NCBI GenBank assembly: GCA_030695945.1
Contig: JAUYOG010000064.1
Span: 62,001 to 126,000 of the forward strand
Length of the DNA: 64,000 bases
Reading direction: 5' to 3'
DNA from: Ramlibacter sp.
Lineage (GTDB): Bacteria > Pseudomonadota > Gammaproteobacteria > Burkholderiales > Burkholderiaceae_C
Shown here: piece after piece, positions 9,491 to 63,073 of the stretch
Position numbering within the stretch: position 1 is the first letter of the stretch
Layout: each line of letters opens with the position of its first letter
Translations under genes and position numbers: made by a program
Notes under the pieces: model-generated
The model's input: only the letters and a program-made list of their open reading frames with translations
What the model was told of the DNA's origin: nothing
The model's database searches: none

Positions 9491-10555
9491 ATGAACTACA
9501 AAATGGCTAAACAACCAAGAAACATCGCCGTCATCGGCGCGGGCATCGCGGGCCTGGCCTGCGCCCGGACCCTGGCGCAGGCCGGGCACCGCGTGACGGT
9601 GCTGGACAAGAACCCCGTCGTCGGGGGGCGCCTTGCCAGTTGCGACACGCCTTTCGGCACTTTCGATCATGGTGCGCAGTACTTCACCGTCCGCGATGCG
9701 CGCTTCCAGAAGGCGCTTGCGACCACGCCGGGCCTGTGCAAGCCGTGGAGCGCGAACGCCGTGCGCGTGCTGGACCCGCATGGCCGCGTCGCCGAGGCGG
9801 CCGTGCCCGCGCCGGAGCCGCACTGGGTCGCCGTGCCAGCCATGGACGCCCTGCCGCGCCACTGGGCGCAGCCGCTGGCGGCGGGCGCAAGCCTGGTGCT
9901 GGAGACCCGCGTCACGCGCATCGAGCGCGACACGCTCGATCACCAGCGCTGGCAATTGCAGACCAGCGGCCCGCAGGATTCCGTCCATGTGTACTCCGGG
10001 TTCGACGCTGTCGTTCTTGCCGTCCCGCAGGCGCTGGCCGCCGGCCTGCTGAACCAGTCGGCCGTCGCGCCGGGCATTTCCGGGCCCATGGCCCACGTCG
10101 AAGTCGCGCCGTGCTGGACGCTGATGCTCGCCTACCCGCAGGCGCAGCAGCCCACGCTCAACCACCTGGGCCCGCAGTGGAACGCGGCGATGAGCACGCA
10201 CCATCGCATCGCATGGCTCGCGCGCGAATCGTCCAAGCCCGGGCGCGGCGGCATCGAGCGCTGGACGGTGCAGGGCAGCCCCGCGTGGTCGCAGGAGCAC
10301 GTGAACGACGACGGTCCGCGAGTGCAGGCCAAGCTGCTCAAGGCTTTCGCGGAAGTGACGGGCATCTACGCCGAGCCGACGTTCGCGCAGGTGCACCGCT
10401 GGATGTGGGCCAAGACGATGACGCCGCTGGGCCGCAGCCATCTGTGGGATGCCAAGGCCGGCATCGGCGCCTGCGGCGACTGGTGCCTGGGCCACCGCGT
10501 CGAAGACGCTTTCATCTCTGGCCTGGAACTCGCGCTGGCGGTGCACAAGGGCTAG
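9491..10555 (+). CDS. NAD(P)/FAD-dependent oxidoreductase, renalase/amine oxidase-like
   Basis: A 354-residue flavoprotein. The dinucleotide-binding motif [19 protein letters not shown] is near the N-terminus, and the amine-oxidase-type FAD signature GGRLASC follows with [12 protein letters not shown]. The C-terminal GDWC motif is the typical FAD-closing segment of this family. Such proteins are annotated as renalase-like or deoxynivalenol-unrelated NAD(P)-binding Rossmann proteins in proteobacteria; the substrate is unknown. The ATG at 9491 is used, but the in-frame ATG at 9503 (MAKQPRN) is equally possible because neither has a convincing Shine-Dalgarno. The gluQRS gene follows 25 bases later. 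Confidence 0.82.
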
Positions 10556-10580
10556 AAAGGCGCGACACCGTGGGAGCCAC

Positions 10581-11537
10581 ATGAGCGCCGACGGGCCGCC
10601 CCAAGGCGCGAAGGCCCCCTCGGGGGGCAGCGCAGCTCACGAAGTGGCAAGCGTGGGGGCCACATACATCGGCCGGTTCGCTCCTTCGCCCACCGGGCTT
10701 TTGCATGCGGGCTCGCTCGTCGCGGCGCTCGCAAGCTGGCTCGACGCACGCGCCCGCGGCGGCCGCTGGCTGGTGCGCATCGAGGATGTCGATACGCCGC
10801 GCTGCGTGCCGGGCGCGGCGGAAACCATCCTCGAACAGCTGGCGGCCTGCTCTCTGATCCCCGACGAAGCGCCCGTGTGGCAATCGCGGCGCGGCGACTT
10901 CTACCAGCAGGCGCTCGACCGGCTGGTTGCCCGGGGCGACGCGTACCCGTGCGCCTGTTCCCGCAAGGACATCGAGCTGGCGCTGGCGGGGCAAGGCCGC
11001 TCGCACGAGCGCCATGCGGAGCTGGTGTACCCCGGCACCTGCCGCCATGGGCTCGGCGGGCGGCCGGCGCGGGCCTGGCGCTTCCGCACCCGCGATGAAA
11101 TCGTGACCTGGCAGGACCGCCGGCTCGGCCCGCAGCAGCAGGACGTCGGGCGCGAGGTCGGCGACTTCGTGCTCCGGCGTGCCGACGGGTTGTGGGCTTA
11201 CCAGCTCGCCGTGGTCGTGGACGACGGGCTGCAGGGCGTCACCCACGTCGTGCGGGGGGAGGACCTGGCGGACAACACGGCCCGGCAGATCCTGCTTCAG
11301 CGCGCGCTCGGCTTGCCCACGCCCGGCTACCTGCACACGCCGCTGGTGCTGGGCGCGAACGGCGAGAAACTCTCCAAACAGAACGGCGCGCTGCCGCTCG
11401 ATCTGCGCGACCCCTTGCACGCGCTCAACGCCGCGGCGCGCACGCTGGGCCTGGCCGAGGCGCAGGGACCCGTCACCCATGCCCTGGGTGCGTGGCAGGC
11501 GCGATGGCGCGACTCCTACAATCGGCCCGGTGACTGA
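10581..11537 (+). CDS. gluQRS: Glutamyl-Q tRNA(Asp) synthetase
   Basis: This enzyme activates glutamate and transfers it to queuosine at position 34 of tRNA(Asp). It resembles the catalytic half of GluRS without an anticodon-binding domain. The class I motifs are present: HAGS in [15 protein letters not shown] and KLSKQ for KMSKS. Likely zinc ligands are the cysteines in CACSRKD and YPGTC. The 318-residue product carries about 27 extra N-terminal residues before YIGRFAPSP, of which residues 5-27 come from a dispersed repeat. An alternative start beyond the repeat has no ATG or GTG close to the homology. Its 3' end overlaps trmB by 8 bases. Confidence 0.93.
10593..10661 (+). repeat. Repeat family A, copy 1 (inside gluQRS)
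   Basis: A GC-rich sequence running from GGGCCGCCCCAAG through the palindromic core CCCCCTCGGGGGG to AAGCGTGGGGG. Close copies lie at 55767-55829 (inside gcvT) and 63005-63073 (intergenic, other strand). Here it is translated as [13 protein letters not shown], the same frame used in gcvT. Confidence 0.85.
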
Positions 11538-13562: not shown

Positions 13563-14395
13563 GGGCCGAACGCGTCGCGCAGCAACTCGCGCACGCGGTC
13601 GCCGGACTGCTGCGCAGCCTCCGGGTTGCGTCCCGAGTGCACGCCCTGCCCCGGGTTGGCGCCGTTGGGCACCTCCTTCAACAGGCGCACCTGGCCCACC
13701 GGGTTGTCGAAGCCGTGGTGACTGTCTGCATAGACGTGAACCTGCGCATCCACCGACCTGCCCAGTTCGATGCACGGGCCCGGCGGCGTCCAGTCGTCCT
13801 TCTCGCCCAGCAGCATCACGAGCCTGGTGGTGGGCCGGTAACCGGATTTCAGCGGCACGCCGCAGCCCGGATAGAACGCGATGGCGAGCACCGGCCGTGT
13901 CGGCTGCGCGCGAACGTCGCGCCGGCTGGCGTCGGTCGCGGACAGCACCGCGCTGCCGCCGTTCGACCAGCCGAGCAATGCGATGCGGTCCGGCCGCGCC
14001 CACGGCTGCGCAGCGACCCAGGCCATGGCGCCCAGCGCATCCGCGCGGCGCTCCGCCTGCGTGATGCGGCGGCTGCCGTTGCGCTGGGTGCAGATCTGGG
14101 TTTCGCCGCGCGGTGCCAGGCTGTCGGGGAAGACGACGGCATAGCCTTCGCCGGTCAGCATCCCGGCATACGCGCGGTGCCGCGCGCTGAGTTCGCCCTT
14201 GCGCGAGCCCGCGGTGGCGTACACCCCCCCGCAACCATGCAGCGCGACGACGGTGCCGCGCGGGGGCTGCCGGGCAGGCTGGAAGACATGCGCCCGGATC
14301 GGCGTCGCGTCCAGGCTCGGGAAGGTCACCTGCTCGGCGCGAGCCGACAGCGCAGTCAAAGCAAGGACCACAATGCCTGTCATGCCGGACTTCAT
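13559..14395 (-). CDS. Secreted alpha/beta hydrolase, dienelactone hydrolase-like
   Basis: A predicted exported hydrolase of about 278 residues. After the signal peptide (GIVVLALTALSARA) come VALHGCGG (oxyanion region), the nucleophile elbow LLGWSNGGSAV and the late histidine in DSHHGFDNP. This is an alpha/beta hydrolase or dienelactone hydrolase pattern; the substrate is unknown. Start codons at 14395 and 14383 both lie inside a palindromic repeat, so a repeat seems to supply the translation start and the first residues of the signal peptide. Reading further upstream to 14458 only adds repeat-encoded residues. It lies just downstream of alaS on the same strand. Confidence 0.75.
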   Translation of the reverse strand: MKSGMTGIVVLALTALSARAEQVTFPSLDATPIRAHVFQPARQPPRGTVVALHGCGGVYATAGSRKGELSARHRAYAGMLTGEGYAVVFPDSLAPRGETQICTQRNGSRRITQAERRADALGAMAWVAAQPWARPDRIALLGWSNGGSAVLSATDASRRDVRAQPTRPVLAIAFYPGCGVPLKSGYRPTTRLVMLLGEKDDWTPPGPCIELGRSVDAQVHVYADSHHGFDNPVGQVRLLKEVPNGANPGQGVHSGRNPEAAQQSGDRVRELLRDAFGP

Positions 14396-14453
14396 CCGGC
14401 ATCCATGGCCGCCCGCACGCCACCATGGGTTGCGGGTCGAGCCCGCAATGACA
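14379..14453. repeat. Repeat family B, copy 1 (paired palindromes at alaS 3' end)
   Basis: Two inverted repeats, one with a GTCATGCCGGA...TCCGGCAT stem and one with TTGCGGGTCGAGCCCGCAA. They fill the gap between alaS and the hydrolase and contain the hydrolase start codons. Related copies are at 27601, 29934, 32775, 57046 and 60032. Confidence 0.85.
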
Positions 14454-27597: not shown

Positions 27598-29176
27598 GGG
27601 CCATGGATTGCGGGTCAAGCCCGCAATGGCTGCGATTGCCGCGATGACGGCAGCGCTGATGCTCCTGGGCGCCGGCGCTGTCCACGCGGGTGCGACGGTG
27701 GTCGAGGCCTCCGTAGAAAAGCTCCAGCGTGACATGGCCGCCGGCCGCGCGACTTCGCAATCCATCACGCAGGACAGCCTGGCCCGCATTCGCCGGCTGG
27801 ATCGCGCGGGGCCACGCATCAACGCCGTGCTGGAGACCAACCCCGACGCCCTGGCGATCGCCCGATCGCTGGACCGGGAGCGCAAGGCGGGCAAGGTGCG
27901 CGGGCCGCTGCATGGCATCCCGGTGCTGCTCAAGGACAACATCGATACCGGCGACCGCATGATGACCACGGCCGGGTCGCTGGCGTTGATGGGTGCGCCG
28001 GCCCCGCGCGATGCGTTCATCGTCAAGCGATTGCGCGAGGCGGGCGCGGTGGTCATCGGCAAGACGAACCTTTCCGAGTGGGCGAACATCCGCGCCAGCA
28101 AGTCCACCAGCGGCTGGAGCGCGCGCGGCGGGCAGACGAAGAACCCCTATGCGCTCGCGCGCAACCCCTGCGGCTCCAGCTCGGGCACCGGCGCGGCGAT
28201 CGCGTCCAGCTTCGCAGTGGTGGGCGTGGGCACCGAGACGGATGGCTCCATCGTGTGCCCCAGCAGCGCGGCGGGCCTGGTGGGCGTCAAGCCGACCGTG
28301 GGGCTGGTGAGCCGCAGCGGCATCATCCCCATCTCGCACTCGCAGGACACGGCCGGGCCGATGACGCGGAGCGTGGCCGATGCGGCCGCGGTGCTCACGG
28401 CGATCGCGGGCGTCGACCCGGAAGACCCGGCCACGCAGGCCGCGCAAGGGCGTGTGGCGGCGGACTATCGCAGCTTCCTCAAGGCCGACGGGCTCAAGGG
28501 CGCGCGCATCGGCATCGCGCGCAAGCGCGTCACGGGCTACAACGCGCACACCGACAGGCTGTTCGGGCAGGCCATCGCCGATTTGAAGCGGCTGGGCGCG
28601 GAGATCGTGGACCCGGCCGATTTCGGCAACATGGGCGACTACGACGAGGAAGAACTCGAAGTGCTGCTGTACGAGCTGAAGGCCGGCCTCGACGCGTACC
28701 TGGGGCGGCGCGCCGGCGCGCCCGTGCGCACGCTGGAGGACGTGATTGCCTTCAACGAGCGGAACGGCCTGCGCGAGATGCCGTGGTTCGGGCAGGATTT
28801 GTTCATCAAGGCGCAGGCCAAGGGGCCGTTGACCGACGAGGCCTACCTGAAGGCGGCGGAGAAGGCGCGGCGCCTGGCGCGCACGGGCATCGACGACGTG
28901 CTGGCGCAGCACAAGCTGGATGCCATCGTCGCACCGACCGGCTCACCGGCGTGGCTGACGGATCACGTGAATGGCGACGCGTTCCAGGGATCGAGCTCCT
29001 CCCCCGCTGCGGTGGCGGGCTACCCGAACATCACGGTGCCCATGGGATTGGCCAGGGGGCTGCCGGTGGGGTTGTCTTTCGTGGGGACGGCGTGGTCGGA
29101 GGGTAAGCTGCTGGGGCTGGCTTATTCGTACGAGCAGGGGACGAGGCACCGGCGGGCGCCGAAGTTGCCGCGCTAG
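27584..29176 (+). CDS. Exported amidase (amidase signature family)
   Basis: A 530-residue amidase signature enzyme that would hydrolyse a carboxamide. The Ser-cisSer-Lys triad is present: Lys in GIPVLLKDNID, the cis-serine in GSSSGTGAA and the nucleophile in TDGSIVCPS. A signal peptide (MAAIAAMTAALMLLGAGAVHA) makes it periplasmic. Two starts are possible. The ATG at 27584 has AGGA four bases upstream and would add 14 residues, partly repeat-encoded (HGLRVKPAM); the ATG at 27626 is the last codon of that repeat. The gene follows the thioredoxin-like gene, so they may form an operon. Confidence 0.85.
   Translation: METPRGHGLRVKPAMAAIAAMTAALMLLGAGAVHAGATVVEASVEKLQRDMAAGRATSQSITQDSLARIRRLDRAGPRINAVLETNPDALAIARSLDRERKAGKVRGPLHGIPVLLKDNIDTGDRMMTTAGSLALMGAPAPRDAFIVKRLREAGAVVIGKTNLSEWANIRASKSTSGWSARGGQTKNPYALARNPCGSSSGTGAAIASSFAVVGVGTETDGSIVCPSSAAGLVGVKPTVGLVSRSGIIPISHSQDTAGPMTRSVADAAAVLTAIAGVDPEDPATQAAQGRVAADYRSFLKADGLKGARIGIARKRVTGYNAHTDRLFGQAIADLKRLGAEIVDPADFGNMGDYDEEELEVLLYELKAGLDAYLGRRAGAPVRTLEDVIAFNERNGLREMPWFGQDLFIKAQAKGPLTDEAYLKAAEKARRLARTGIDDVLAQHKLDAIVAPTGSPAWLTDHVNGDAFQGSSSSPAAVAGYPNITVPMGLARGLPVGLSFVGTAWSEGKLLGLAYSYEQGTRHRRAPKLPR
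27601..27629. repeat. Repeat family B, copy 2 (amidase N-terminus)
   Basis: A single palindrome with arms ATTGCGGG and CCCGCAAT around TCAAG, flanked by CCATGG. It overlaps the amidase start region and encodes LRVKPAM, the same peptide as in ImuB. Confidence 0.8.
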
Positions 29177-32100
29177 TGAAAATCCCGGCTCTTGCTCGGC
29201 TGCTGCCCCAGCCGACCTAGCAGCGGCGTCAGATCCTCCATGCGCTCGGCGATCAGGTGGCGCACCTGGCCGCCGCTTTCCACGTCGCGCTGCCACTTGC
29301 CGTACACGGCGAGCAGGCGCGACTTGAGCAGGGCCTCGCGCTGCTCCTCGCGGACGGATTTCCAGACGATCACGTTGACGGGGCCGGTCTCGTCTTCCAG
29401 CGTGACGAAGATCGTGCCCTTGGCCGTCTGCGGCTGCTGGCGCATGGTGACGATGCCGCAGGCGCCCACTTTCCTGCCGCTGGGCATGTCGTGCAACTGG
29501 CCGGCGCTGAGGATCTTCATGCGCGCGAGGCGCGGGCGCAGCAGGGCCAGCGGGTGGCGGCGCAGCGTGAGGCCGAGCGACGCGTAGTCGAACACGATCT
29601 CCTCGCCTTCCGGCGCCGCGGGGAGTTCCAGCGCTTCCTCGTTCACCGGCGCGCCTTGCAGAAGCTCGGGCGCGCGGCGTTGCGCGGCGGCGTCCCACAC
29701 CTGCTGGCGCCGGTGGCCGGAGAGGGATTGCAGCGCGTCGCCGGCGGCCAGGGCGTTGAGGTCCTTCATGTCCAGCTCGGCGCGCATCGCCATGTCTTCG
29801 GTGCTGGTGAAGGGCGCTTGCTCGCGCGCGGCCACGATGCGCTTGGCCCCTGCTTCGCTCAGGCTGCCGACGAGGCGCAGGCCGAGGCGGACCGGCGGGC
29901 GAAATAAATTGGAATCTGACCCCAATTGTTTTTCCGGATCGAGTCCGGCATGACAAGGCTCCAGCGTGCTGTCCCAGTCGCTGTGGGAGACGTCGGGGGG
30001 CAGCACGGTGATGCCGTGGCGCTTGCCGTCCTGCACCAGTTGCGAGGGCGTGTAGAAGCCCATGGGTTGCGAGTTGAGCATGGCGGCCAGGAAGCATTGG
30101 GGCTCGTGGCATTTCAGCCAGCTGCTCGCATAGGCCAGCAGCGCGAAGCTGTAGGCGTGGCTCTCGGGGAAGCCATATTCGCCGAAGCCCATGATCTGCT
30201 TGAAGATGGCCTCGGCGAACTCCTGGCGGTAGCCGTTGGCCAGCATGCCGTCGATGATCGGGCCGTAGAAGCGCTGCACGCCGCCCTTGCGCTTCCACGC
30301 GGCCATGGAGCGGCGCAGCGCGTCGGCCTCGGTGGCGGAGAAGCCGGCCGCGATCATCGCGATCTGCATCACCTGCTCCTGGAAGATGGGCACGCCCAGC
30401 GTGCGGCCCAGGGCGCTCTCCAGCTCGGGCTTCTCGTAGTCGATCTTCTCGCCGCGCGCCAGCCGCTCGCGCGACTTGAGGTAGGGGTGCACCATGCCGC
30501 CCGCGATGGGGCCGGGCCGCACGATGGCCACCTCGATCACCAGGTCGTAGAACTTGCGCGGCTTCAGGCGCGGCAGCATCGACATCTGCGCCCTGCTCTC
30601 GATCTGGAACACGCCCACGGTGTCGGCCTTGCAGATCATGTCGTAGGTGGCCGGGTCCTCGCGCGGGATGTCGGCGAGATCCCAGTGGCCGCCGCGCAGC
30701 TGGTTGCGGAAATCCAGGCAGCGGCGGATGGCGGTGAGCATGCCCAGCGCCAGCACGTCCACCTTCATCAGGCCCATGTCCTCCAGGTCGTCCTTGTCCC
30801 ACTGGATGACGGAGCGGTCCTTCATCGACGCGTTCTCCACCGGCACCAGGCGCGTGAGCTTTGTTTGCGTCAACACGAAGCCGCCCACGTGCTGGCTCAG
30901 GTGCCGCGGAAAGCCCATGAGTTCGTCGGTGAGGTCCAGCCACAGGCTTGCCTGGTATTCCTGGAGCTCGCAGCCGGCTGCCCGTGCGAGCTCGTGCAGG
31001 CGCCCGGCGGCCAGCTTGTCGTCGAACCATTGGTGGTCCTTCGCGAAGATGTCCACCAGCGCGTCGGGCAGGCCCAGCGCCTTGCCGACGTCGCGGATGG
31101 CGCTGCGCGTGCGGTAGCCGATGACGACGGCGGCGATGGCCGAGCGTTCGCGCCCGTACTTGCCGTAGATGTACTGGATCACCTCCTCGCGCCGCTCGTG
31201 CTCGAAATCCACGTCGATGTCGGGCGGCTCGTTGCGGCGCTCCTTGCTGATGAAGCGCTCCAGCAGCGGGTTGGAATCCTCCGGGTTGGCGGCGGTGATG
31301 GCCAGGCAATAGCAGACGACCGAGTTGGCGGCGGAGCCGCGGCCCTGACAGAGGATGTGCCGGCTGCGCGCGAAGCGCACGATGTCGTGCACCGTCAGGA
31401 AGAACATCTCGTAGTTGCACTCGGCGATGAGCTTGAGTTCCTTCTCCAGCCAGGCCTCGATCTGCGCCGGCACGCCGTGGGGGAAGCGCTCCGCCGCGCC
31501 TTCGTAGGTGAGTTGGCGCAGGGCCTGCGTGGGCGTCATGCCGGGGGGCACCGTCTCCAGCGGGTAGTCGTACTTGATCTCGTCCAGGCTGAACTCGCAG
31601 CGGCGCATCACTTCCAGCGTGGCAGCGAGCAATTCAGGCGGATAGGTGGCCGCCACGCGCTTGCGCTGGCGCAGGTGCCGCTCGGCATTGCCTTGCAATT
31701 CCATCCCGCAATCGGCCACGGGTTGGCCCATGCGCACGGCAGTGATGACGTCCTGCAGGCGCTTTCGCGAGCGCACGTGCATGCACACGTCGCCGGCCGC
31801 CACCAGCGGCACGCCCGTGCGCTCGCCGGCCTGCCGCAGCGTGGCGAGCCACAGGTCGTCGTCGATCAGGTGCAGCAGCTCCACCGCCAGCCACAGGTGG
31901 CCGTCGAACAGGGTCTTGCATTGTTGGATGCGGGTGCAGAGGGTGTCGACGTCCAGCGTCCCGCCGGATTGGCGGATCGGCGCGAGCAGGATCTCGCAGC
32001 CCTGCAGCATCGTGAAATCGCTGTGCTCCCAGCTCACGTTGTACTCGCCCTTGGGTGCGGTGGTGCGCGCGGCGGTGATGAATTCGCACAGGCCCCCCCA

Positions 32101-32493
32101 GCCGTGCAGGTCACGCGCGATGGCCACCAGCCGGAAGCCTTCCAGCAGGAACTCGCTGCCGTACAAGAGCTTGAAGGGCCGCGAGCGGCGCTGCTGCGGA
32201 TATTCATCCTCGAGCTTCCGGATCATGGCGTAGTGGTCGTTCAGGCCCGAGTACGCGCGCACCACGCCGGCCACCGAGCATTCGTCGGTGAGGGCCAGCG
32301 CCTCGTAGCCGAGGTTGTAGGCGCGCTGCACCAGCTCCTGCGGGTGCGACGCGCCGCGCTGGAAGCTGAAGTTGCTGATGCAATGCAGCTCCGCGTAGGC
32401 AGGCAGCATGTCGGGCCCGCTGCCCAGCACCGGCGGCAGGCCGTCTTCTTCCGCCAGGCCTGGCGGAAGCGACTGTGCGTGGCCTTCAGGCAT
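29173..32493 (-). CDS. dnaE2: Error-prone DNA polymerase DnaE2 (ImuC)
   Basis: DnaE2 is the catalytic polymerase of the SOS mutasome and copies damaged DNA with ImuA and ImuB. The 1106-residue product starts AYAELHCISNFSFQRGASHP after a short leader (PHP domain) and has the catalytic loop PDIDVDFEHERREEV. Helix-hairpin-helix and OB-fold parts follow. The family is usually about 1030-1080 residues. Part of the excess lies at residues 847-863, where two repeats are translated as CHAGLDPEKQLGSDSNLF between the conserved SDWDSTLEP and RLGLRLVGSL. The ATG at 32493 overlaps the imuB stop by 8 bases. The stop overlaps the end of the amidase gene. Confidence 0.95.
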   Translation of the reverse strand: MPEGHAQSLPPGLAEEDGLPPVLGSGPDMLPAYAELHCISNFSFQRGASHPQELVQRAYNLGYEALALTDECSVAGVVRAYSGLNDHYAMIRKLEDEYPQQRRSRPFKLLYGSEFLLEGFRLVAIARDLHGWGGLCEFITAARTTAPKGEYNVSWEHSDFTMLQGCEILLAPIRQSGGTLDVDTLCTRIQQCKTLFDGHLWLAVELLHLIDDDLWLATLRQAGERTGVPLVAAGDVCMHVRSRKRLQDVITAVRMGQPVADCGMELQGNAERHLRQRKRVAATYPPELLAATLEVMRRCEFSLDEIKYDYPLETVPPGMTPTQALRQLTYEGAAERFPHGVPAQIEAWLEKELKLIAECNYEMFFLTVHDIVRFARSRHILCQGRGSAANSVVCYCLAITAANPEDSNPLLERFISKERRNEPPDIDVDFEHERREEVIQYIYGKYGRERSAIAAVVIGYRTRSAIRDVGKALGLPDALVDIFAKDHQWFDDKLAAGRLHELARAAGCELQEYQASLWLDLTDELMGFPRHLSQHVGGFVLTQTKLTRLVPVENASMKDRSVIQWDKDDLEDMGLMKVDVLALGMLTAIRRCLDFRNQLRGGHWDLADIPREDPATYDMICKADTVGVFQIESRAQMSMLPRLKPRKFYDLVIEVAIVRPGPIAGGMVHPYLKSRERLARGEKIDYEKPELESALGRTLGVPIFQEQVMQIAMIAAGFSATEADALRRSMAAWKRKGGVQRFYGPIIDGMLANGYRQEFAEAIFKQIMGFGEYGFPESHAYSFALLAYASSWLKCHEPQCFLAAMLNSQPMGFYTPSQLVQDGKRHGITVLPPDVSHSDWDSTLEPCHAGLDPEKQLGSDSNLFRPPVRLGLRLVGSLSEAGAKRIVAAREQAPFTSTEDMAMRAELDMKDLNALAAGDALQSLSGHRRQQVWDAAAQRRAPELLQGAPVNEEALELPAAPEGEEIVFDYASLGLTLRRHPLALLRPRLARMKILSAGQLHDMPSGRKVGACGIVTMRQQPQTAKGTIFVTLEDETGPVNVIVWKSVREEQREALLKSRLLAVYGKWQRDVESGGQVRHLIAERMEDLTPLLGRLGQQPSKSRDFH
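29906..29954. repeat. Composite repeat in dnaE2: family D (29906-29927) plus family B copy 3 (29934-29954)
   Basis: The first part is AAATTGGAATCTGACCCCA, also found at 56623 after gcvT. The second is a CCGGATCGAGTCCGG palindrome with the family B end GCATGAC. Together they add about 17 in-frame codons to dnaE2. Confidence 0.8.
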
Positions 32494-33838
32494 ACAGGCC
32501 CTGCAGGTACCAGCGGAATTCCTCCGCTTGCTCCAGGCCCTGCGCCAGTTGCAGCGGCCGTTCGCGATAGATCCACACCAGGCCGGCCTCTTCGCTGCGG
32601 GCGATGAAGTAGTCGCGCAGCGCGGGTTTGCTTCCTTCCCACCAGCCGGTCTCCACGCGGTAGAGGCGCGCCAGACGGCGCAAGGGGCCGCAGTAGTGGG
32701 GGACGCTGTTGTGGACTTCGAGGGGGAGCGGACGCGCAAGGAGCCATGGCGGATAAAGCGCATCGGTTGGTTTTGTCATTGCGGGCTTGACCCGCAAATC
32801 GCCGCGCCGTGCCGGCATGGATGCCGGGTCAAGCCCGGCATGACAAGATCGCGCCGGCACCCACTTCTGCATCCTCTCCGGCCGATGGTCCTCATGCGCC
32901 TGCGCCACCAGCACATTGCCCTCCCCCAGCCGCACGCTGAGGCGCTCCACCAGCTGGTGCAGGCGCTCGCCTTTCACGTTGTCCTCGGGCAGCAGGCTCT
33001 TGTCGGCGCCGCCCCAGGGTAGCGTCTCGATCGACCGCAGCCGCAAATGATTGGCCGGCGCCGACAGCGTGGAACGCGAGAGATGCTCGCCCACCAAGCG
33101 CCGCAAATGCGAGATGTCCTGCGTGGGCTGCGCGGTGCGCACCGTGAGCTGCTCGTGGCTCGGCAGGCGCACGCCGTTCAGGCGCCGCAGGTCCAATGTC
33201 CACTCCAGCTCCAGCGCCAGCACGCCGCGGTGGCGCGCCTGCAGCCACACCTGCAGCTGCGTGAGCAGGCGCTGGGCGCTCCACATCAGCTCGGGCGCGG
33301 TGGTGGCCAGCGCGGCGAGCTCGAACTTCATGTCGAATGCCTCGGGCAATTGCAGCCAGTCGTAGCGCTCGGGCCGATCGCCATACCCCGCATCCAGCGC
33401 GTCGAGCAAGGCCGCACCGAAGCGCCGCGCCACGCCGGCGCGCGGCAAGGCGCGCAGGTCACCCCAGGTGCGGCAACCGGTGCGCTCCAGCGTCGGGACA
33501 TGCTCGCGCGCGGCGGTGAGCGCATCCAGCGGCAAGTCCTGCGGCAAGTTCTGTTGTAGATGTGCGGGCGGCGCCTCGCCGCGCAGCTTCAGTCGCAGCA
33601 GGGCCAGCGCGACGAGCGACGTGGCGCCGTGCGCCCATTGCGCGCCGGAGAGCGGCTCGCAGCCCTGCACCAGGCTGCACAGCAGGCGCTTGCGCCCGCC
33701 CCACAGGCGCTCCGAGCCCGACACCTCGAGCAGCAGCGCTTCATCCACCTGCGCCACGCGCGGCGTGAACTGCAATGCGCGCCAGCCCCAGGCGGTGCGC
33801 TCTTCTTCATGAAATGGCAGCAGTGCGATCCAGTACAT
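32486..33838 (-). CDS. imuB: ImuB, Y-family polymerase-like SOS mutasome adaptor
   Basis: ImuB is a catalytically dead Y-family homologue that links ImuA and DnaE2 to the beta clamp. The 450-residue product begins MYWIALLPF, lacking the aspartate that Y-family enzymes need at this position, but retains QVDEALLLEVSGSERLWGG. Residues 332-355 are a translated family B repeat (SCHAGLDPASMPARRGDLRV) between QKWVPA and the conserved ALYPPWLLARPLPL. The ATG at 33838 was chosen by homology; it lies within the end of imuA (32-base overlap). Its stop overlaps the dnaE2 start. Confidence 0.93.
   Translation of the reverse strand: MYWIALLPFHEEERTAWGWRALQFTPRVAQVDEALLLEVSGSERLWGGRKRLLCSLVQGCEPLSGAQWAHGATSLVALALLRLKLRGEAPPAHLQQNLPQDLPLDALTAAREHVPTLERTGCRTWGDLRALPRAGVARRFGAALLDALDAGYGDRPERYDWLQLPEAFDMKFELAALATTAPELMWSAQRLLTQLQVWLQARHRGVLALELEWTLDLRRLNGVRLPSHEQLTVRTAQPTQDISHLRRLVGEHLSRSTLSAPANHLRLRSIETLPWGGADKSLLPEDNVKGERLHQLVERLSVRLGEGNVLVAQAHEDHRPERMQKWVPARSCHAGLDPASMPARRGDLRVKPAMTKPTDALYPPWLLARPLPLEVHNSVPHYCGPLRRLARLYRVETGWWEGSKPALRDYFIARSEEAGLVWIYRERPLQLAQGLEQAEEFRWYLQGLYA
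32775..32844. repeat. Repeat family B, copy 4 (inside imuB)
   Basis: Two palindromes, GTCATTGCGGGCTTGACCCG-type and ATGCCGGGTCAAGCCCGGCAT-type, joined by a GC-rich spacer and bounded by GTCAT and ATGAC. It has the full two-hairpin architecture, like the intergenic copy at 60032-60105, and is read through in frame by imuB. Confidence 0.88.
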
Positions 33839-34559
33839 GCGATCTCCTGTGCAAGGGGGTGACGGATGCCGGTGCGGGCGTGGGTGCGGGGCCCTTGCGC
33901 GCATCGAGCAATGCCGCCACGCGCTGCGACCAGGCCGGCAGCACGAGCGGTCTTTCCAGCGGCGGGCCGCGGCGCTTGAGGATGTGCAGCCGCAGCGAAT
34001 CCACGCCTTCGGCCAGCAGGCGCACGCGGGCCGGCGATGAATCCTGCCGCGCGTTCAGCCCGCGGAAGACGAACAGCAGCTTGTCGTGCTGCTGCGCCGC
34101 CATGTGCAGGCGGCGCAGCTCGGCGCTTTTGGCCTGCGGCAGCCAGGCCAGCACGGCCACGACGTCGGCGCAGCGCAGGCACTGCTCGGCGGCCCAGAGC
34201 CGCGGGGCCGGCTTGTCGGCCTTGACGCAGAGCAGGCGATTGCCCGGCAGGCCCTGCGCACCGAGGCTGGGGCCGAACGGGTCGAATGGCGAACCCACCA
34301 GCGCCACCGGCCCCGCCTGCTTCTGCACGGCCTGCGCCAGGCCGGGCAGCAGCAACTGCCACACGTGCGGGCCGGAGCGCGCCTGCAGCACTTCCACCAT
34401 ACTGCCCACCGGCCAGCCGCCGCCGGGCAACTGCGCGTCCAACGCCGCGTGGCCCGTGGGCACGACCACCTCCTGCGCCCGCGCAAGCTCGGGCACCCGC
34501 CACACATTGGGCAGGGATGCAGGTTCGATGAGGCGCAGGTGGGCAGGCACGGGGGGCAC
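33807..34559 (-). CDS. imuA: ImuA, RecA-like SOS mutasome protein
   Basis: ImuA (also annotated SulA-like or ImuA family translesion protein) is a RecA/SulA-related factor that works with ImuB and DnaE2. The 250-residue product has a RecA-like beginning with TGHAALDAQLPGGGWPVGSMVEVL, then LLPGLAQAVQ and a LLCVKADKPAPRLWAAEQCLR segment. It is the first gene of the imuA-imuB-dnaE2 operon, and all junctions overlap. A LexA box lies 14 bases upstream of the start codon, so expression should rise with DNA damage. Confidence 0.92.
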   Translation of the reverse strand: MPPVPAHLRLIEPASLPNVWRVPELARAQEVVVPTGHAALDAQLPGGGWPVGSMVEVLQARSGPHVWQLLLPGLAQAVQKQAGPVALVGSPFDPFGPSLGAQGLPGNRLLCVKADKPAPRLWAAEQCLRCADVVAVLAWLPQAKSAELRRLHMAAQQHDKLLFVFRGLNARQDSSPARVRLLAEGVDSLRLHILKRRGPPLERPLVLPAWSQRVAALLDARKGPAPTPAPASVTPLHRRSHVLDRTAAIS

Positions 34560-47881: not shown

Positions 47882-48188
47882 GCTGGGCGGCAGAATTGGG
47901 TGTGCCAGCATCGTTGGCGGGACCTGGACGGCGGGGCACTCTGCTCCGCGAATGTCCCCCGTCGCCCTTGCGGGCTACCTCCTCCTTTATTTCGCTGCGC
48001 AGAGCGCCCCACCGTCCAGGCCTGCGGTCTTCATGGGCGTTCGAGCGTCGCAACCCGGGTCAAGGGCGTCGGGTGGCCAACGCAGCGAAATAAAGGCGGA
48101 GGAAGCGGGCGTGCCCGCGCCGGGGGACATTCGCGGAGTTGGCCGCCCGGCGTCCTTGACCAGCGCACACTTTCTTCCTGCCGCCCAG
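47882..48188. repeat. Nested palindromic element of about 307 bases
   Basis: The outer ends CTGGGCGGCAG and CTGCCGCCCAG are inverse copies. Further in, CGCGAATGTCCCCCG is inverted as CGGGGGACATTCGCGG, and CCTCCTTTATTTCGCTGCG as CGCAGCGAAATAAAGGCGG. A third inverted pair, GGTCAAGGGCGTCGGGTGGCCAAC and its near-inverse at 48138-48161, lies in the right half. It fills the region between the peroxidase-like gene and the thioesterase gene, with no supported gene. Confidence 0.7.
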
Positions 48189-50348: not shown

Positions 50349-50440
50349 GCTTTTATAGGCGCGCCGAATAGAATCATTGCCATCCGCGACGCCGCATCGG
50401 CCGCAACCCGTTCGTCAAAACCATTATCAACGGAACCCCT

Positions 50441-52138
50441 ATGACCCACGAAGAAATACTGGCGCAGTACGGACCGCGCGAAGCGATGGAATACGACGTC
50501 GTCGTCGTGGGCGGCGGACCGGCCGGCCTGTCGGCCGCCATCAAGCTCAAGCAGCTGGCGGCGGAACACGGCAAGGAGATTTCGGTCGTCGTGCTCGAAA
50601 AGGGTTCGGAGCCCGGCGCGCACATCCTGGCCGGCACGGTGATGGACCCGCGTGCGCTGTACGAGCTGTTCCCGAACTGGAAGGAACTCGGCGCGCCGCT
50701 GAACCAGCCGGTGACGGACGACGCGATGGTGTTCCTCTCGGAAACGGGCGGCATGCGCACGCCCAACTTCCTGCTGCCGGAATGCTTCCAGAACCACGGC
50801 AACTATGTGATCAGCCTGGCCAACTTCACCCGCTGGCTGGCCCAGCAGGCCGAAGCCATCGGCGTCGAGATCTTCCCCGGCTTTCCGGCCGCCGAAGTGC
50901 TCTACAACGAGAACGGCTCGGTCAAGGGCGTGGCCACCGGCAATATGGGAGTCGGCAAGGATGGCGAGCCGACGGAGGCCTTCCAGCTGGGCATGGAGCT
51001 GCATGCCAAGTACACGCTTTTCGCCGAGGGTTCGCGCGGCCACCTGGGCCGCCAGCTGATCTCGCGGTTCAAGCTCGACGACGGCAAGGACCCGCAGGGC
51101 TATGCGCTGGGCATCAAGGAGCTGTGGGAGATCGACCCGAAGCGCCACCAGCCCGGCTTCGTGATGCACACCGCGGGCTGGCCGCTGGACAACGACACTT
51201 ATGGCGGCTCGTTCCTGTACCACATGGAAAACAACCAGGTGGCGCTGGGCTTCATCACCGGCCTGAACTATTCCAACCCGTACCTGAGCCCGTTCGAGGA
51301 GTTCCAGCGGTGGAAGACGCACCCCAACATCCGCTGGTACCTCGAAGGCGACGAGAGCAAGGGCATCCAGCCCGGCAAGCGCGTGTCGTACGGCGCACGC
51401 GCCATCACGGCAGGCGGGTTGCTCAGCCTGCCCAAGACGGTGTTCCCGGGCGGTGCGCTGATCGGCTGCGATGCGGGCTTCCTGAACGCCTCGCGCATCA
51501 AGGGCAGCCATGCCGCGATCAAGACCGGCATGCTGGCCGCCCAGGCCGCGTACGAGGCTGTGACACACGGCCGCCAGCACGACGAGCTGGAGGCCTACCC
51601 CGAGGCCTTCCAGCATTCGTGGCTGTACGAGGAGCTGAACAAGGCGCGCAACTTCAAGGCCTGGTTCAAGTGGGGGCTGCTGCCCGCCTCGTTCATGAAC
51701 GGGCTGGAGCAGTTCCTGCTGCGCGGGCGCATGCCCTGGACGGTGCACCGCGACAAGCCGGACCACGCCTACCTGAAGCCCGCGTCGGAGTGCAAGCCGA
51801 TCGTGTATCCCAAGCCCGACGGCAAGATCACCTTCGACCGGCTCTCCTCGGTGTTCGTCTCGAACACCAATCATTCCGAGGAGCAGCCGGCCCACCTCAC
51901 GCTCAAGGACGCATCGGTCCCGGTGCAGGTGAACCTGGCGAAGTACGCCGGCCCTGAAAGCCGCTACTGCCCGGCAGGCGTTTACGAGTTCGTGAAGACC
52001 ACGGACAACCAGGACAGGCTGCAGATCAACGCCTCGAACTGCGTGCATTGCAAGACCTGCGATATCAAGGACCCGACGCAGAACATCGTCTGGGTGACGC
52101 CGGAAGGCGGCGGCGGGCCGAACTACGGCAGCATGTGA
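50441..52138 (+). CDS. Electron transfer flavoprotein-ubiquinone oxidoreductase
   Basis: ETF-QO passes electrons from ETF (acyl-CoA dehydrogenases) to ubiquinone at the inner membrane. The 565-residue length is typical. The FAD motif VVVVGGGPAGLSAAIKLKQLA is near the N-terminus. The quinone-binding part follows, and the C-terminal 4Fe-4S cluster uses CPAGVYEF and CVHCKTCDIKDP. An alternative start at residue 16 (MEYDVVVVGG) is possible. It links beta-oxidation and branched-chain amino acid breakdown (bkd genes) to respiration. Confidence 0.96.
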   Translation: MTHEEILAQYGPREAMEYDVVVVGGGPAGLSAAIKLKQLAAEHGKEISVVVLEKGSEPGAHILAGTVMDPRALYELFPNWKELGAPLNQPVTDDAMVFLSETGGMRTPNFLLPECFQNHGNYVISLANFTRWLAQQAEAIGVEIFPGFPAAEVLYNENGSVKGVATGNMGVGKDGEPTEAFQLGMELHAKYTLFAEGSRGHLGRQLISRFKLDDGKDPQGYALGIKELWEIDPKRHQPGFVMHTAGWPLDNDTYGGSFLYHMENNQVALGFITGLNYSNPYLSPFEEFQRWKTHPNIRWYLEGDESKGIQPGKRVSYGARAITAGGLLSLPKTVFPGGALIGCDAGFLNASRIKGSHAAIKTGMLAAQAAYEAVTHGRQHDELEAYPEAFQHSWLYEELNKARNFKAWFKWGLLPASFMNGLEQFLLRGRMPWTVHRDKPDHAYLKPASECKPIVYPKPDGKITFDRLSSVFVSNTNHSEEQPAHLTLKDASVPVQVNLAKYAGPESRYCPAGVYEFVKTTDNQDRLQINASNCVHCKTCDIKDPTQNIVWVTPEGGGGPNYGSM

Positions 52139-55412: not shown

Positions 55413-56624
55413 TTGTCCGCCACGCAAGACCCACAACTTCTCCACACGCCGCTGCATGGGCTGCACCTGGAACTGGGCGCCCGCATGGTGCCCTTCGCCG
55501 GGTACTCGATGCCGGTGCAGTACCCCGCCGGCCTGATGGCCGAGCATCACCAGACGCGCGAATCCGCGGGCCTCTTCGACGTCTCCCACATGGGACAGTT
55601 GCGCCTCGTCGGCCCCGATGCCGCCGCCGCCTTCGAAACGCTCATGCCGGTGGACGTGATCGACCTGCCGGTGGGCAAGCAACGCTACGGGCTGCTGCTG
55701 ACCGACGAGGGCACGATCATCGACGACCTGATGTTCGTGAATTGCGGCGAGGACATGAGCTTCGCCGGGCCGCCCCAAGAAGCGAAGGCCCCCTCGGGGG
55801 GCAGCGAGCCTTCAAGCGAGCGTGGGGGCACTATCTTCGTGATCGTGAACGGCGCCTGCAAGCTGGGCGACATCGCCCACATCCAGGGGCGCATCGGCTC
55901 GCGCTGCCAGGTGATCCCCATGCCCGAACGCGGCCTGCTCGCGCTGCAGGGGCCCAAGGCCGTGCAAGCCCTGGTGCGGCTCGTGCCCGGCGTGGACAAG
56001 CTGGTGTTCATGACCGGCGGGCGCTTCCCCTGGAACGGCGGCGAGCTGTTCATCACTCGCAGCGGCTACACCGGCGAGGACGGCTTCGAGATTTCCGTGC
56101 ATGAATCGCAGGCCGACGCCCTCGCCCGCGCGCTGTTGGCGCAGCCGGAGGTCAAGCCCATCGGACTGGGTGCGCGCAACTCGCTGCGGCTCGAAGCAGG
56201 CCTGTGCCTCTACGGCAACGACATCGACACGACCACCACGCCGGTGGAAGCGGCGCTGAACTGGGCGATCCAGAAGGTACGCCGCACCGGCGGCGCGCGC
56301 GCCGGCGGCTTCCCCGGCGCCGCGAAGGTGCTGGGCCAGCTCGATGGCACCGTGCCGCTGGAGCGAAAGCGGGTCGGCCTGGCCGCGCTGGAGCGCGTGC
56401 CGGTGCGAGAGCACACCGAGCTGCAGGACACCAACGGGGCGCGCATCGGCGAAGTCACCAGCGGCCTCCTGGGCCCGACGATCAACCGGCCGGTGGCGAT
56501 GGGCTACGTCAACCCGCTGCTGGCCACGATCGGCACCCGCGTCCACGCCCTGGTGCGCGGCAAGCCGGTGGCGATGGAAGTTTCGGCGATGCCGTTCGTG
56601 CCGAACCGCTACTGGCGCGGTTAA
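55413..56624 (+). CDS. gcvT: Glycine cleavage system T protein (aminomethyltransferase)
   Basis: GcvT moves the aminomethyl carbon from lipoylated GcvH to tetrahydrofolate, releasing ammonia. The 403-residue product begins [29 protein letters not shown], with the active-site [11 protein letters not shown] and [22 protein letters not shown]. Normal length is about 365-375; residues 119-139 are an in-frame repeat ([21 protein letters not shown]) inserted between the conserved FVNCGED and [10 protein letters not shown] chose the TTG at 55413, since GGAG lies 6-7 bases upstream; another TTG at 55392 sits too near the hairpin. Glycine should induce it through the riboswitch. Confidence 0.95.
55767..55829 (+). 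repeat. Repeat family A, copy 2 (inside gcvT)
   Basis: GGGCCGCCCCAAGAAGCGAA and the core CCCCCTCGGGGGG match the copies at 10593 and 63005, ending at CGTGGGGGC. It is translated as [13 protein letters not shown], in the same frame as in gluQRS. Confidence 0.87.
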
Positions 56625-56645
56625 ATTGGAATCTGACCCCACTTT
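56623..56645. repeat. Repeat family D, copy 2 (between gcvT and gcvH)
   Basis: AAATTGGAATCTGACCCCA begins at the last base but one of the gcvT stop codon and shares 19 bases with the element inside dnaE2 at 29906. It is the short spacer before the gcvH Shine-Dalgarno AGGAGAG. Confidence 0.75.
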
Positions 56646-57032: not shown

Positions 57033-57045
57033 CCTGCCTCCCGAT

Positions 57046-57110
57046 GTCATCCCGGACCTGATCCGGGATCCACGGCAGCCGATGGATTGCGGATCGAGTC
57101 CGCAATGACA
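57046..57110. repeat. Repeat family B, copy 5 (between gcvH and gcvP)
   Basis: Two palindromes, ATCCCGGACCTGATCCGGGAT-type and TTGCGGATCGAGTCCGCAA, bounded by GTCAT and ATGAC. It fills almost the whole gap ahead of the gcvP start, so its hairpins would be in the operon mRNA. Confidence 0.87.
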
Positions 57111-60026: not shown

Positions 60027-60031
60027 GTCTT

Positions 60032-60105
60032 GTCATTGCGGGCTTGACCCGCAATCCATGGTGGTGTGCCGGCCAACATGGATGCCGGATCAAGTCCGGC
60101 GTGAC
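60032..60105. repeat. Repeat family B, copy 6 (after gcvP)
   Basis: A full two-hairpin copy (TCATTGCGGGCTTGACCCG and GCCGGATCAAGTCCGGC) just after the gcvP stop and 9 bases before the TauE-family start. It could act as a terminator or mRNA-stabilising structure. Confidence 0.87.
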
Positions 60106-60113
60106 GGGCCCTG

Positions 60114-62549: not shown

Positions 62550-62999
62550 ATGATGAACCACGCCGCGATTCTCGTGGTGGATGACAACCCCGATCACCTC
62601 GAGCTGACCGTGATGGCGCTCGGCGACTGTTGCGACCCGAAAGATATCGCCACCGCGACCGACGGCGTGGAGGCGCTGGACTACCTGTTCGGCCGAGGCG
62701 CGCACGCGGGGCGTGACCCCAGCCAGCAGCCGCAGCTGATCATCCTGGACATGAAGCTCGTGCGCCTGCACGGGCTGGACGTCCTCAAGGCCGTCCGCCA
62801 CGATCCCCGCACCGCCACCATTCCCGTCGTCATGCACTCGTCGTCGACCGAAAAGGGCGACATCGCGGCCTGCTATGCCAGCGGCGCCAACAGCTACGTG
62901 CGCAAGGCCACCGACTACGACGAGCTGCGCCGCAAGATGCGCCAGGTGCACGATTTCTGGATGACCGTCAACGAGCGCTACCGCCCCGCGGGCGGCTGA
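62550..62999 (+). CDS. Single-domain response regulator, Rcp1-like
   Basis: A 149-residue receiver of the Rcp1 type, the group usually paired with phytochrome-like histidine kinases. Features are AILVVDDNPDHLELTVMAL (acidic pocket), the acceptor aspartate in LIILDMKLVRLHGLDVLK at about residue 67, SSS in VVMHSSSTEKGD and the lysine in YVRKATDYDEL. Two ATGs (62550, 62553) are available, and a TTG at 62541 is also possible because no Shine-Dalgarno is well placed. A structured leader precedes the gene. No kinase is nearby. Confidence 0.85.
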   Translation: MMNHAAILVVDDNPDHLELTVMALGDCCDPKDIATATDGVEALDYLFGRGAHAGRDPSQQPQLIILDMKLVRLHGLDVLKAVRHDPRTATIPVVMHSSSTEKGDIAACYASGANSYVRKATDYDELRRKMRQVHDFWMTVNERYRPAGG

Positions 63000-63004
63000 A
63001 CATG

Positions 63005-63073
63005 GCGCCCACGCTTGTCACTTCGTGTACTTCGCTGCCCCCCGAGGGGGCTTCAGTCGCCTTGGGGCGGCCC
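63005..63073 (-). repeat. Repeat family A, copy 3 (intergenic)
   Basis: Read on the minus strand it runs from GGGCCGCCCCAAGGCGACTGA through CCCCCTCGGGGGGCAGCG to AAGTGACAAGCGTGGGCGC. It lies between the Rcp1-like gene and frnE, downstream of both. Confidence 0.88.

Follow-up and report, generated by a model that had tools for sequence, protein, structure and literature searches.

Palindromic repeats of several families recur in coding linkers of the mutasome genes dnaE2 and imuB in a relative of Ramlibacter and in related genomes

How do palindromic repeats that lie mostly between genes come to be translated within two proteins of one mutasome? The question is raised by an imuA-imuB-dnaE2 operon of about 5.4 kb, located on the minus strand of a 64,000-nucleotide stretch of Ramlibacter sp. 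DNA (GenBank assembly GCA_030695945.1, contig JAUYOG010000064.1, positions 62,001–126,000), hereafter the window, in which both ImuB and DnaE2 carry short palindromes in frame. Comparison with related genomes reveals one linker of DnaE2 and one of ImuB to be recurrent landing sites, occupied by palindromes of several families unrelated to one another. Judged from sequence, the explanation that we consider clearly the most likely is that non-autonomous mobile palindromes entered these two protein-coding linkers and accumulated where short linkers tolerate them. The genes of the operon and their inserts are listed below with window positions, followed for the inserts by contig positions and mismatches to the search pattern.

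33807–34559, minus strand: imuA, first gene of the operon (NCBIfam ImuA_translesion, 2.4e-59, above the cut-off).
32486–33838, minus strand: imuB, 450 aa, with an in-frame inverted pair of putative CGTC-tagged repetitive extragenic palindromes (REPs) in a linker of its C-terminal part (translation, ImuB-named homologs).
29173–32493, minus strand: dnaE2 (imuC), 1106 aa, with one CGTC unit and one palindrome of the family flanking a REP-associated tyrosine transposase (RAYT) gene, in linker residues 843–864 (NCBIfam, Pfam).
32774–32798, plus strand: CGTC unit 1 of imuB (C44:94774-94798, 1 mismatch), with a TGTC tag, loop CTTGA, 7 perfect stem pairs and a degenerate tail.
32821–32845, minus strand: CGTC unit 2 of imuB (C44:94821-94845, 0 mismatches), with a TGTC tag, an 8-bp stem, loop CTTGA and a CCA tail.
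29931–29955, minus strand: CGTC unit of dnaE2 (C44:91931-91955, 1 mismatch), its tail lost where the next palindrome joins.
29907–29927, minus strand: RAYT-flank palindrome AATTGGGGTCAGATTCCAATT of dnaE2 (C44:91907-91927, 0 mismatches), encoding the peptide LGSDSN.

In ImuB, the insert consists of an inverted pair of 72 bp (32774–32845) read in frame at residues 332–355, as the original prediction from the letters of the window had proposed, and only one such unit is present in DnaE2. The peptide CHAGLDP, which that prediction had found in both proteins, indeed starts at residue 332 of ImuB and residue 847 of DnaE2. The DnaE2 copy had been described as partial; one CGTC unit is there, but the insert is not merely half a repeat, the adjoining AATTGGGGTCAGATTCCAATT, a palindrome unrelated to it, having been overlooked. 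As described in PMC3733652, CGTC-tagged REPs have a TGTC or CGTC (or CCTC) tag, an 8–9 bp stem starting with AT, a loop of 4–5 nt and mostly a CCA tail, form inverted dimers and possess no transposase of their own. The window units resemble them in tag, 8-bp stem starting with AT, 5-nt loop and inverted dimers, and are assigned to this class on the published wording for these features. Their stems, for instance ATTGCGGG/CCCGCAAT in a copy at an amidase gene described below and ATGCCGGG/CCCGGCAT in unit 2 of imuB, leave 5 nt between the arms, and the CCA tail is present in unit 2 of imuB and in the nearest relative (L157), degenerate in unit 1 and lost in dnaE2. In the assembly searched (3.75 Mb in 73 contigs, 79 percent complete), the CGTC pattern gave 87 matches with at most 3 mismatches and the same pattern read backward gave none; four 3-mismatch matches (C1:133218, C1:133222, C46:31930 and C53:97110) were left aside. 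An initial looser pattern, with up to four substitutions, was discarded, nearly all of its matches being due to chance. Most units in the genome start with TGTC or CGTC, a result biased towards TGTC, which the pattern demands. Opposed pairs make up the majority of the 50 clusters examined, and 46 of the 50 are not fully within a scored open reading frame (ORF).

The second palindrome of the DnaE2 linker, AATTGGGGTCAGATTCCAATT, occurs in 14 copies in the same genome, with no match to the backward-read pattern. It flanks in inverted orientation the only Y1 transposase gene found in this incomplete assembly: at that locus (L001, G000:C52:54943-58272), palindromes at 1083–1103 and 1897–1917 stand on either side of a 239-aa stretch that scores 84.0, against a cut-off of 80, with the NCBIfam model REP_Tyr_transpos (REP-associated tyrosine transposase). 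No CGTC unit was listed at this single Y1 locus, other transposases not having been searched. The palindrome holds GGGGTCAG, consistent with GGGGWSAS, the motif given for the terminal inverted repeats (TIRs) of TIRYT/RAYT transposases in PMC3733652. In many other genomes, two opposed AATTGGGGTCAGATTCCAATT copies lie about 760–855 bp apart, which is the size of the RAYT unit.

The DnaE2 linker was compared in 60 genomes of the genus, 58 of which had a DnaE2 at threshold; 51 were fetched and 50 rows were kept, since the linker of L233 was unreadable, and second dnaE2 matches of G250, G267 and G281 fell outside the survey. Additional relatives came from named records of Ramlibacter, Caenimonas and other Burkholderiales. 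The linker is 69 nt long here versus 24–27 nt in L162–L164, L168, L169, L173, L176, L177 and L183, so that empty insertion sites, whose presence in relatives had been proposed as a check, do exist. Among the 50 genus rows, 25 carry the RAYT palindrome (at most 2 mismatches); a CGTC unit is present in 2, the genome studied here and L157, its closest relative, and a CCCTCTCCC-type palindrome in 2. The RAYT palindrome stands forward and alone in 17 rows (once with CGTC), as a forward-reverse doublet in 6 and as a reverse-forward doublet in 2. The same linker in 67 other rows of the family holds the RAYT palindrome four times, GTTCGCCCTGAGC-type repeats twice and CCCCTCGGGGGGCAGCG- and CCCTCTCCC-type repeats once each. 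A check of four genomes (G164, G302, G288 and G176), which left aside the repeats of L017, L039, L181 and L231, confirmed that such inserts can be multi-copy elements: the GTTCGCCCTGAGC-type repeat has 26 matches in G164, and the CCCTCTCCC-type repeat occupies 7 sites in G302 and 17 in G288, in each case with one in dnaE2. Genome G278 (L181) has 6 CCCTCTCCC-type sites, none of them on the contig with the dnaE2 match. Across 26 genomes of the genus, 17 of 161 RAYT palindromes (at most 1 mismatch) lie in the dnaE2 linker, spread over 13 genomes, whereas about 0.1 would be expected in the entire gene if they were spread uniformly; shared descent inflates this excess, and the proportion is therefore no test of independent events. 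The uniform-chance figures were computed with 18 and 14, and the tally of 17 omits G269, in which the palindrome lies about 77 nt past the end of the cut dnaE2 match. A further repeat family of the window, with CCCCCTCGGGGGGCAGCG, is found at 10579–10674, 55753–55806 and 62991–63051, and a similar repeat is seen in the DnaE2 linker of L017.

The ImuB linker shows the same behavior with a partly different set of repeats. It measures 90 nt here versus 36–45 nt in many rows, and 48 genus rows contain a CGTC unit in three cases, a dRS3-like repeat in three and a CCCTCTCCC-type match in one, while none of the three patterns was found in 60 family rows. The dRS3-like repeat is multi-copy, with 215 matches in G253, 22 in G262 and 7 in G277, and in each of these genomes one of the matches is at imuB, some hundreds of bases upstream of dnaE2. 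At the peptide level, the best 120 of 3326 ImuB homologs include CGTC-repeat peptides in the forward frame b in 20 cases, in the reverse frame in 23 and in the CHAGLDP frame in one, together with PLPKG/LPSGER peptides in 17; at least one signature is present in 48. The CGTC family is thus translated in different frames of ImuB, which indicates separate insertions or subsequent shifts. That the peptides could be ordinary conserved segments of the ImuB and DnaE2 families is hardly credible in view of the single CHAGLDP-like case and of the frequent insert-free linkers, which contradict the objection that the original prediction had raised against itself. The CGTC content of the four genomes in which at least one of the two linkers holds a CGTC unit exceeds that of 46 others (p 0.003, one-sided), although four is a small group.

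Both proteins are under purifying selection despite their inserts. DnaE2 reaches 1398.9 bits, against a cut-off of 939, with the NCBIfam model for the error-prone DNA polymerase and shows the corresponding Pfam domains. ImuB matched none of the Pfam or NCBIfam models and is named from its operon position and from homologs that their sources call ImuB. The two ORFs are long and unbroken, with no frameshift seen, and the ratio of nonsynonymous to synonymous substitution rates (dN/dS), calculated with the linker left out, is 0.105 for DnaE2 compared with L157 and 0.107 for ImuB compared with L002, two relatives that themselves hold CGTC inserts at the respective site. An assembly in 73 contigs and incomplete to this extent leaves some room for the idea that decaying genes tolerate anything or that the inserts are assembly errors. 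We find this highly unlikely given the full-length ORFs, the Pfam domains of DnaE2 and a dN/dS of about 0.1, and because L002, a relative from a separate record, has a similar ImuB insert. The intact frames and the dN/dS values contradict a pseudogene or frameshift reading, and with it the concern that sequencing errors hide frameshifts. The suggestion that insertion is tolerated agrees with the low dN/dS against the nearest relatives and with the position of the DnaE2 site: in an alignment with Escherichia coli Pol III alpha (5fku), the linker is bordered by YHFHVNDDG and EIVYGIGAI, a position that we read as a short turn ahead of the helix-hairpin-helix region. For ImuB, no relative of solved structure was found: with a limit of E = 1, the top match was a peroxidase (0.19). 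A computational study regards the C-terminal domain of ImuB as the part that probably binds DnaE2 (PMC6511836).

The history of the DnaE2 site was followed on a quick maximum-likelihood tree of the 50 DnaE2 rows, built with the linker removed and containing 14 weak forks. The RAYT palindrome is found in all three subclades of a 43-row part of this tree, mostly in a single orientation and frame, which implies that at least one insertion is probably old, and the UvrA and carboxylase sites described below are also common to several species. These observations are what one would expect from a single ancient insertion per site, inherited vertically with many losses and no later mobility. We regard this scenario as rather unlikely: over the 50 rows, the tree requires no fewer than 11 changes in presence of the palindrome and no fewer than 15 in the full arrangement, the same linker is occupied by reverse-first and forward-first doublets, by CGTC alone and by other families, and the palindrome is too well preserved. 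In 19 of the 23 rows with the peptide SDSN, an identical TCAGATTCCAAT (12 nt) is shared, and 15 nt are identical in 9 of 9 LESDP rows. The codons TCA-GAT-TCC-AAT are retained in 87 of 92 instances in SDSN rows versus 98 of 280 for the same codons at other DnaE2 positions with an unchanged amino acid (GAT 38/107, AAT 13/20 and TCC 47/153), a comparison in which TCA has no comparable case and the rows were selected by palindrome match. The DnaE2 palindrome is thereby kept at the nucleotide level better than adjacent codons. Its presence also follows the abundance of the family, genomes with the dnaE2 palindrome having 2–16 other RAYT copies versus 0–12 in those without (Mann-Whitney p 3.5e-6, kinship uncorrected); when kinship was taken into account through 11 independent pairs, the median p was 0.125 for a threshold of 3 other copies, 0.016 for 4 and 0.031 for 5. 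The palindrome thus seems to remain sharp chiefly in genomes rich in its family, a pattern that selection on the peptide would explain less well than re-insertion or conversion.

Within the DnaE2 linker, AATTGGGGTCAGATTCCAATT starts 3 nt beyond the CGTC unit, and this junction is not isolated. Three of the 14 RAYT palindromes of the genome adjoin the tail end of a CGTC unit, in dnaE2, in a carboxylase gene, where a dRS3-like unit stands about 26 nt off on the opposite side, and at an intergenic site (L081), whereas 0.003 such adjacencies are expected under a uniform spread. At the dnaE2 site of the nearest relative, L157 (dS 0.235), the CGTC unit retains its tail and the RAYT palindrome is absent, and hence the junction arose or was resolved after the split from L157. 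Related arrangements occur on the tag side, with 6 nt between the RAYT palindrome (C10:50396-50416) and a CGTC unit (50423-50447) in G251, and with the palindrome (C6:10161-10181) 6 nt off a dRS3-like unit (10130-10154) in G253. A CGTC unit is listed in none of 30 RAYT-palindrome loci of the genus. Either one palindrome serves as a target for the other or tolerant spots gather both.

The original prediction had stressed that two proteins of one mutasome are hit. Both indeed carry inserts, but so do PutA, a carboxylase and UvrA in the same genome, as listed here with positions within each locus.

L062 1533-1593 (G000:C43): PutA, with an in-frame CGTC pair in the aldehyde dehydrogenase part.
L070 1440-1570 (G000:C48): carboxylase, with three repeats in series and in frame: dRS3-like unit, RAYT palindrome, CGTC-like unit.
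L083 830-4801 (G000:C2): UvrA, holding two RAYT palindromes as well as another peptide that looks inserted, SPSPSGGGQGWG.

Scored ORFs fully enclose only four of the 50 CGTC clusters, those in imuB, dnaE2, PutA and the carboxylase; two of these four genes belong to the one 5.4-kb operon, for which uniform chance would be about 1e-5, a figure flattered by the operon having been spotted first. The carboxylase carries the Pfam domain Carboxyl_trans and is presumably the beta subunit of methylcrotonyl-CoA carboxylase; at the same position, G251 (L236) has a CGTC unit and a RAYT palindrome in the opposite orientation. Both palindrome sites of UvrA recur in other species, in which a third site is used as well. 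Of the RAYT-palindrome loci inspected, 2 of the first 30 listed from other family genomes were scored within a gene, as were 7 of 30 from the genus (3 in dnaE2, 1 in uvrA). In a set of 60 further genus loci, from which copies in dnaE2 and pairs flanking a transposase were excluded by design, genes contain 26 of the 71 palindromes: 13 in UvrA at three recurring sites, 4 in the carboxylase, 4 in an acyl-CoA dehydrogenase, 3 in an OCD-like protein and 1 each in a Rieske oxygenase and a histidine kinase. These identities rest on one Pfam-annotated representative each, the remainder being assigned by like context; one UvrA palindrome (L202, L290) is counted in both genus sets, and the codon score used to call genes was trained on the GC-rich window, so that genes may be missed in family genomes of lower GC content. 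The acyl-CoA dehydrogenase of the genome studied here (L086) has a palindrome match with 3 mismatches. It is likely a decayed copy, because L258, L282, L284 and L288 have copies with at most 1 mismatch at the same site, and its dismissal as a chance match was set aside on these grounds. The recurrent sites in UvrA and in metabolic genes demonstrate that such sites are not limited to the mutasome, and the idea of the mutasome as sole target fails across the genus: repair genes are prominent, and the mutasome is a favored but not a unique target.

The prominence of repair genes invites the alternative that the inserts are selected, the palindromes in dnaE2, imuB and uvrA altering mutasome or repair activity or acting as DNA or RNA control elements. 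It could account for the large repair-gene share (17 of 161 palindromes in the dnaE2 linker, 13 of the further 26 intragenic ones in UvrA) and for the 12 nt common to most SDSN rows, and DnaE2 and Uvr genes already figure among the targets in PMC3733652. We nevertheless hold it to be unlikely, since the family, length and orientation of the insert vary among relatives, many of which have none, since the dnaE2 rows without the RAYT palindrome come mostly from genomes poor in it, and since metabolic genes likewise show recurrent sites. A role of the inserts in mutagenesis is possible. A more speculative proposal, to which we assign a low probability, is that maintained docking sites exist in the linkers of DnaE2, ImuB and UvrA, their palindromes being recognized by the RAYT and by the mobilizer of the CGTC repeats, which would couple element activity with error-prone repair; the transposase may, for example, bind the palindrome of dnaE2 on single-stranded DNA or on the mRNA, or element-directed conversion may keep the palindrome perfect within a coding region.

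Entry of mobile palindromes followed by accumulation in tolerant linkers, the explanation that we favor, would proceed as follows. Insertions would land broadly, most intragenic ones being purged, and the few short linkers able to accept 10–30 additional residues would collect them. ImuB would in this way have acquired an inverted pair of CGTC-tagged REPs, and DnaE2 a CGTC unit together with a palindrome of the family that flanks the single RAYT gene found. The RAYT, presumably acting as a single-strand transposase, would copy the RAYT palindromes; the one in dnaE2 would be old in the genus, kept sharp by ongoing re-insertion or conversion, and would decay where the family is rare. Several observations weigh against this account. 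Tolerance alone predicts neither the large share of inserts in dnaE2, imuB and uvrA nor the nucleotide-perfect dnaE2 palindrome across species, and the adjacency of 3 of 14 RAYT palindromes to CGTC units indicates a degree of preference in targets. In more distant comparisons, with L160 and L162, dN/dS reaches 0.29–0.38 for DnaE2 and 0.13–0.36 for ImuB, and G176 (L018), whose row resembles the GTTCGCCCTGAGC-type repeat, had no match to that pattern genome-wide.

Intragenic REPs, DnaE2 included, are already known, and it is the recurrent multi-family linker pattern that looks new. REPs within genes were reported in 2013 with DnaE2 and Uvr proteins (uvrA) among the targets, and the authors speculated that REP insertions modified repair proteins and favored mutators (Di Nocera, De Gregorio and Rocco, PMC3733652). 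According to the same paper, genes of the same category were hit at different sites, save recB of two Xanthomonas, whereas one DnaE2 and one ImuB linker recur here; its main text contains 0 occurrences of ImuB. The RAYT palindromes resemble the TIRs of TIRYT/RAYT elements, as presented there, in their inverted copies flanking the RAYT gene, their fit to GGGGWSAS through GGGGTCAG and their single and paired copies, and differ from them in recurring at fixed intragenic sites and in adjoining CGTC units in 3 of 14 cases. They also share with REP doublets forming hairpins (REPINs) the inverted pairs of short palindromes accompanied by a RAYT gene, and the titles and opening lines of abstracts of the REPIN literature make no mention of intragenic hot linkers. 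Rickettsia palindromic elements (RPEs) are likewise palindromic repeats translated in frame in many unrelated genes; in PMC10969869 they are described as being about 150 bp long with a conserved peptide, whereas the elements here measure about 21–72 bp and the CGTC units are read in several frames, so that the resemblance is one in mode of working only. The hosts differ too. Ramlibacter, to which the present host is related, is free-living, unlike the hosts of RPEs. Within the open-access literature, mostly at title and abstract level, we found no earlier account of linker recurrence across families or of the nucleotide-level preservation, and at that level no later work on CGTC mobilization turned up; a literature search for CHAGLDP gave 0 occurrences. 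Intragenic palindromes are usually seen as scattered accidents, and here a few linkers are refilled, by families unrelated to one another, in a manner matching the repeat content of the genome. The natural series of insert-free and insert-bearing orthologs offers a means to address the long-standing question of whether the REP peptides carried by DNA-repair enzymes have no effect or alter mutagenesis, and a nucleotide-perfect palindrome in a coding linker may mark a live family and help to date element activity.

The remaining repeats of these two families in the window lie at or between genes.

27607–27631, minus strand: single CGTC unit over the likely start codon of an amidase gene (pattern match).
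14378–14453: CGTC inverted pair, with an 18-nt overlap with the 5' edge of a predicted gene.
57045–57110: CGTC inverted pair, intergenic.
60031–60106: CGTC inverted pair, intergenic.
56624–56644, minus strand: RAYT-flank palindrome (one mismatch), on the 3' border of a predicted gene.

The two intergenic pairs correspond to the two-hairpin copies recognized earlier near 57046 and 60032. At the amidase gene, the overlap of the repeat with the gene start holds, but the peptide LRVKPAM, said to be common to ImuB and the amidase, would be encoded only with an upstream start; the ATG at 27626, within the repeat, gives a signal-peptide-like start, MAAIAAMTAALMLLGAGAVHAG, so that the repeat probably spans the start codon and LRVKPAM is probably untranslated there, the choice of start being inferred. 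Apart from this case, the earlier observations are sound, and their interpretation was broadly right though too narrow. Elsewhere in the window, at 47931–48151, nested inverted repeats were detected with arms of 35 and 39 nt and spacings of 151 and 55 nt.

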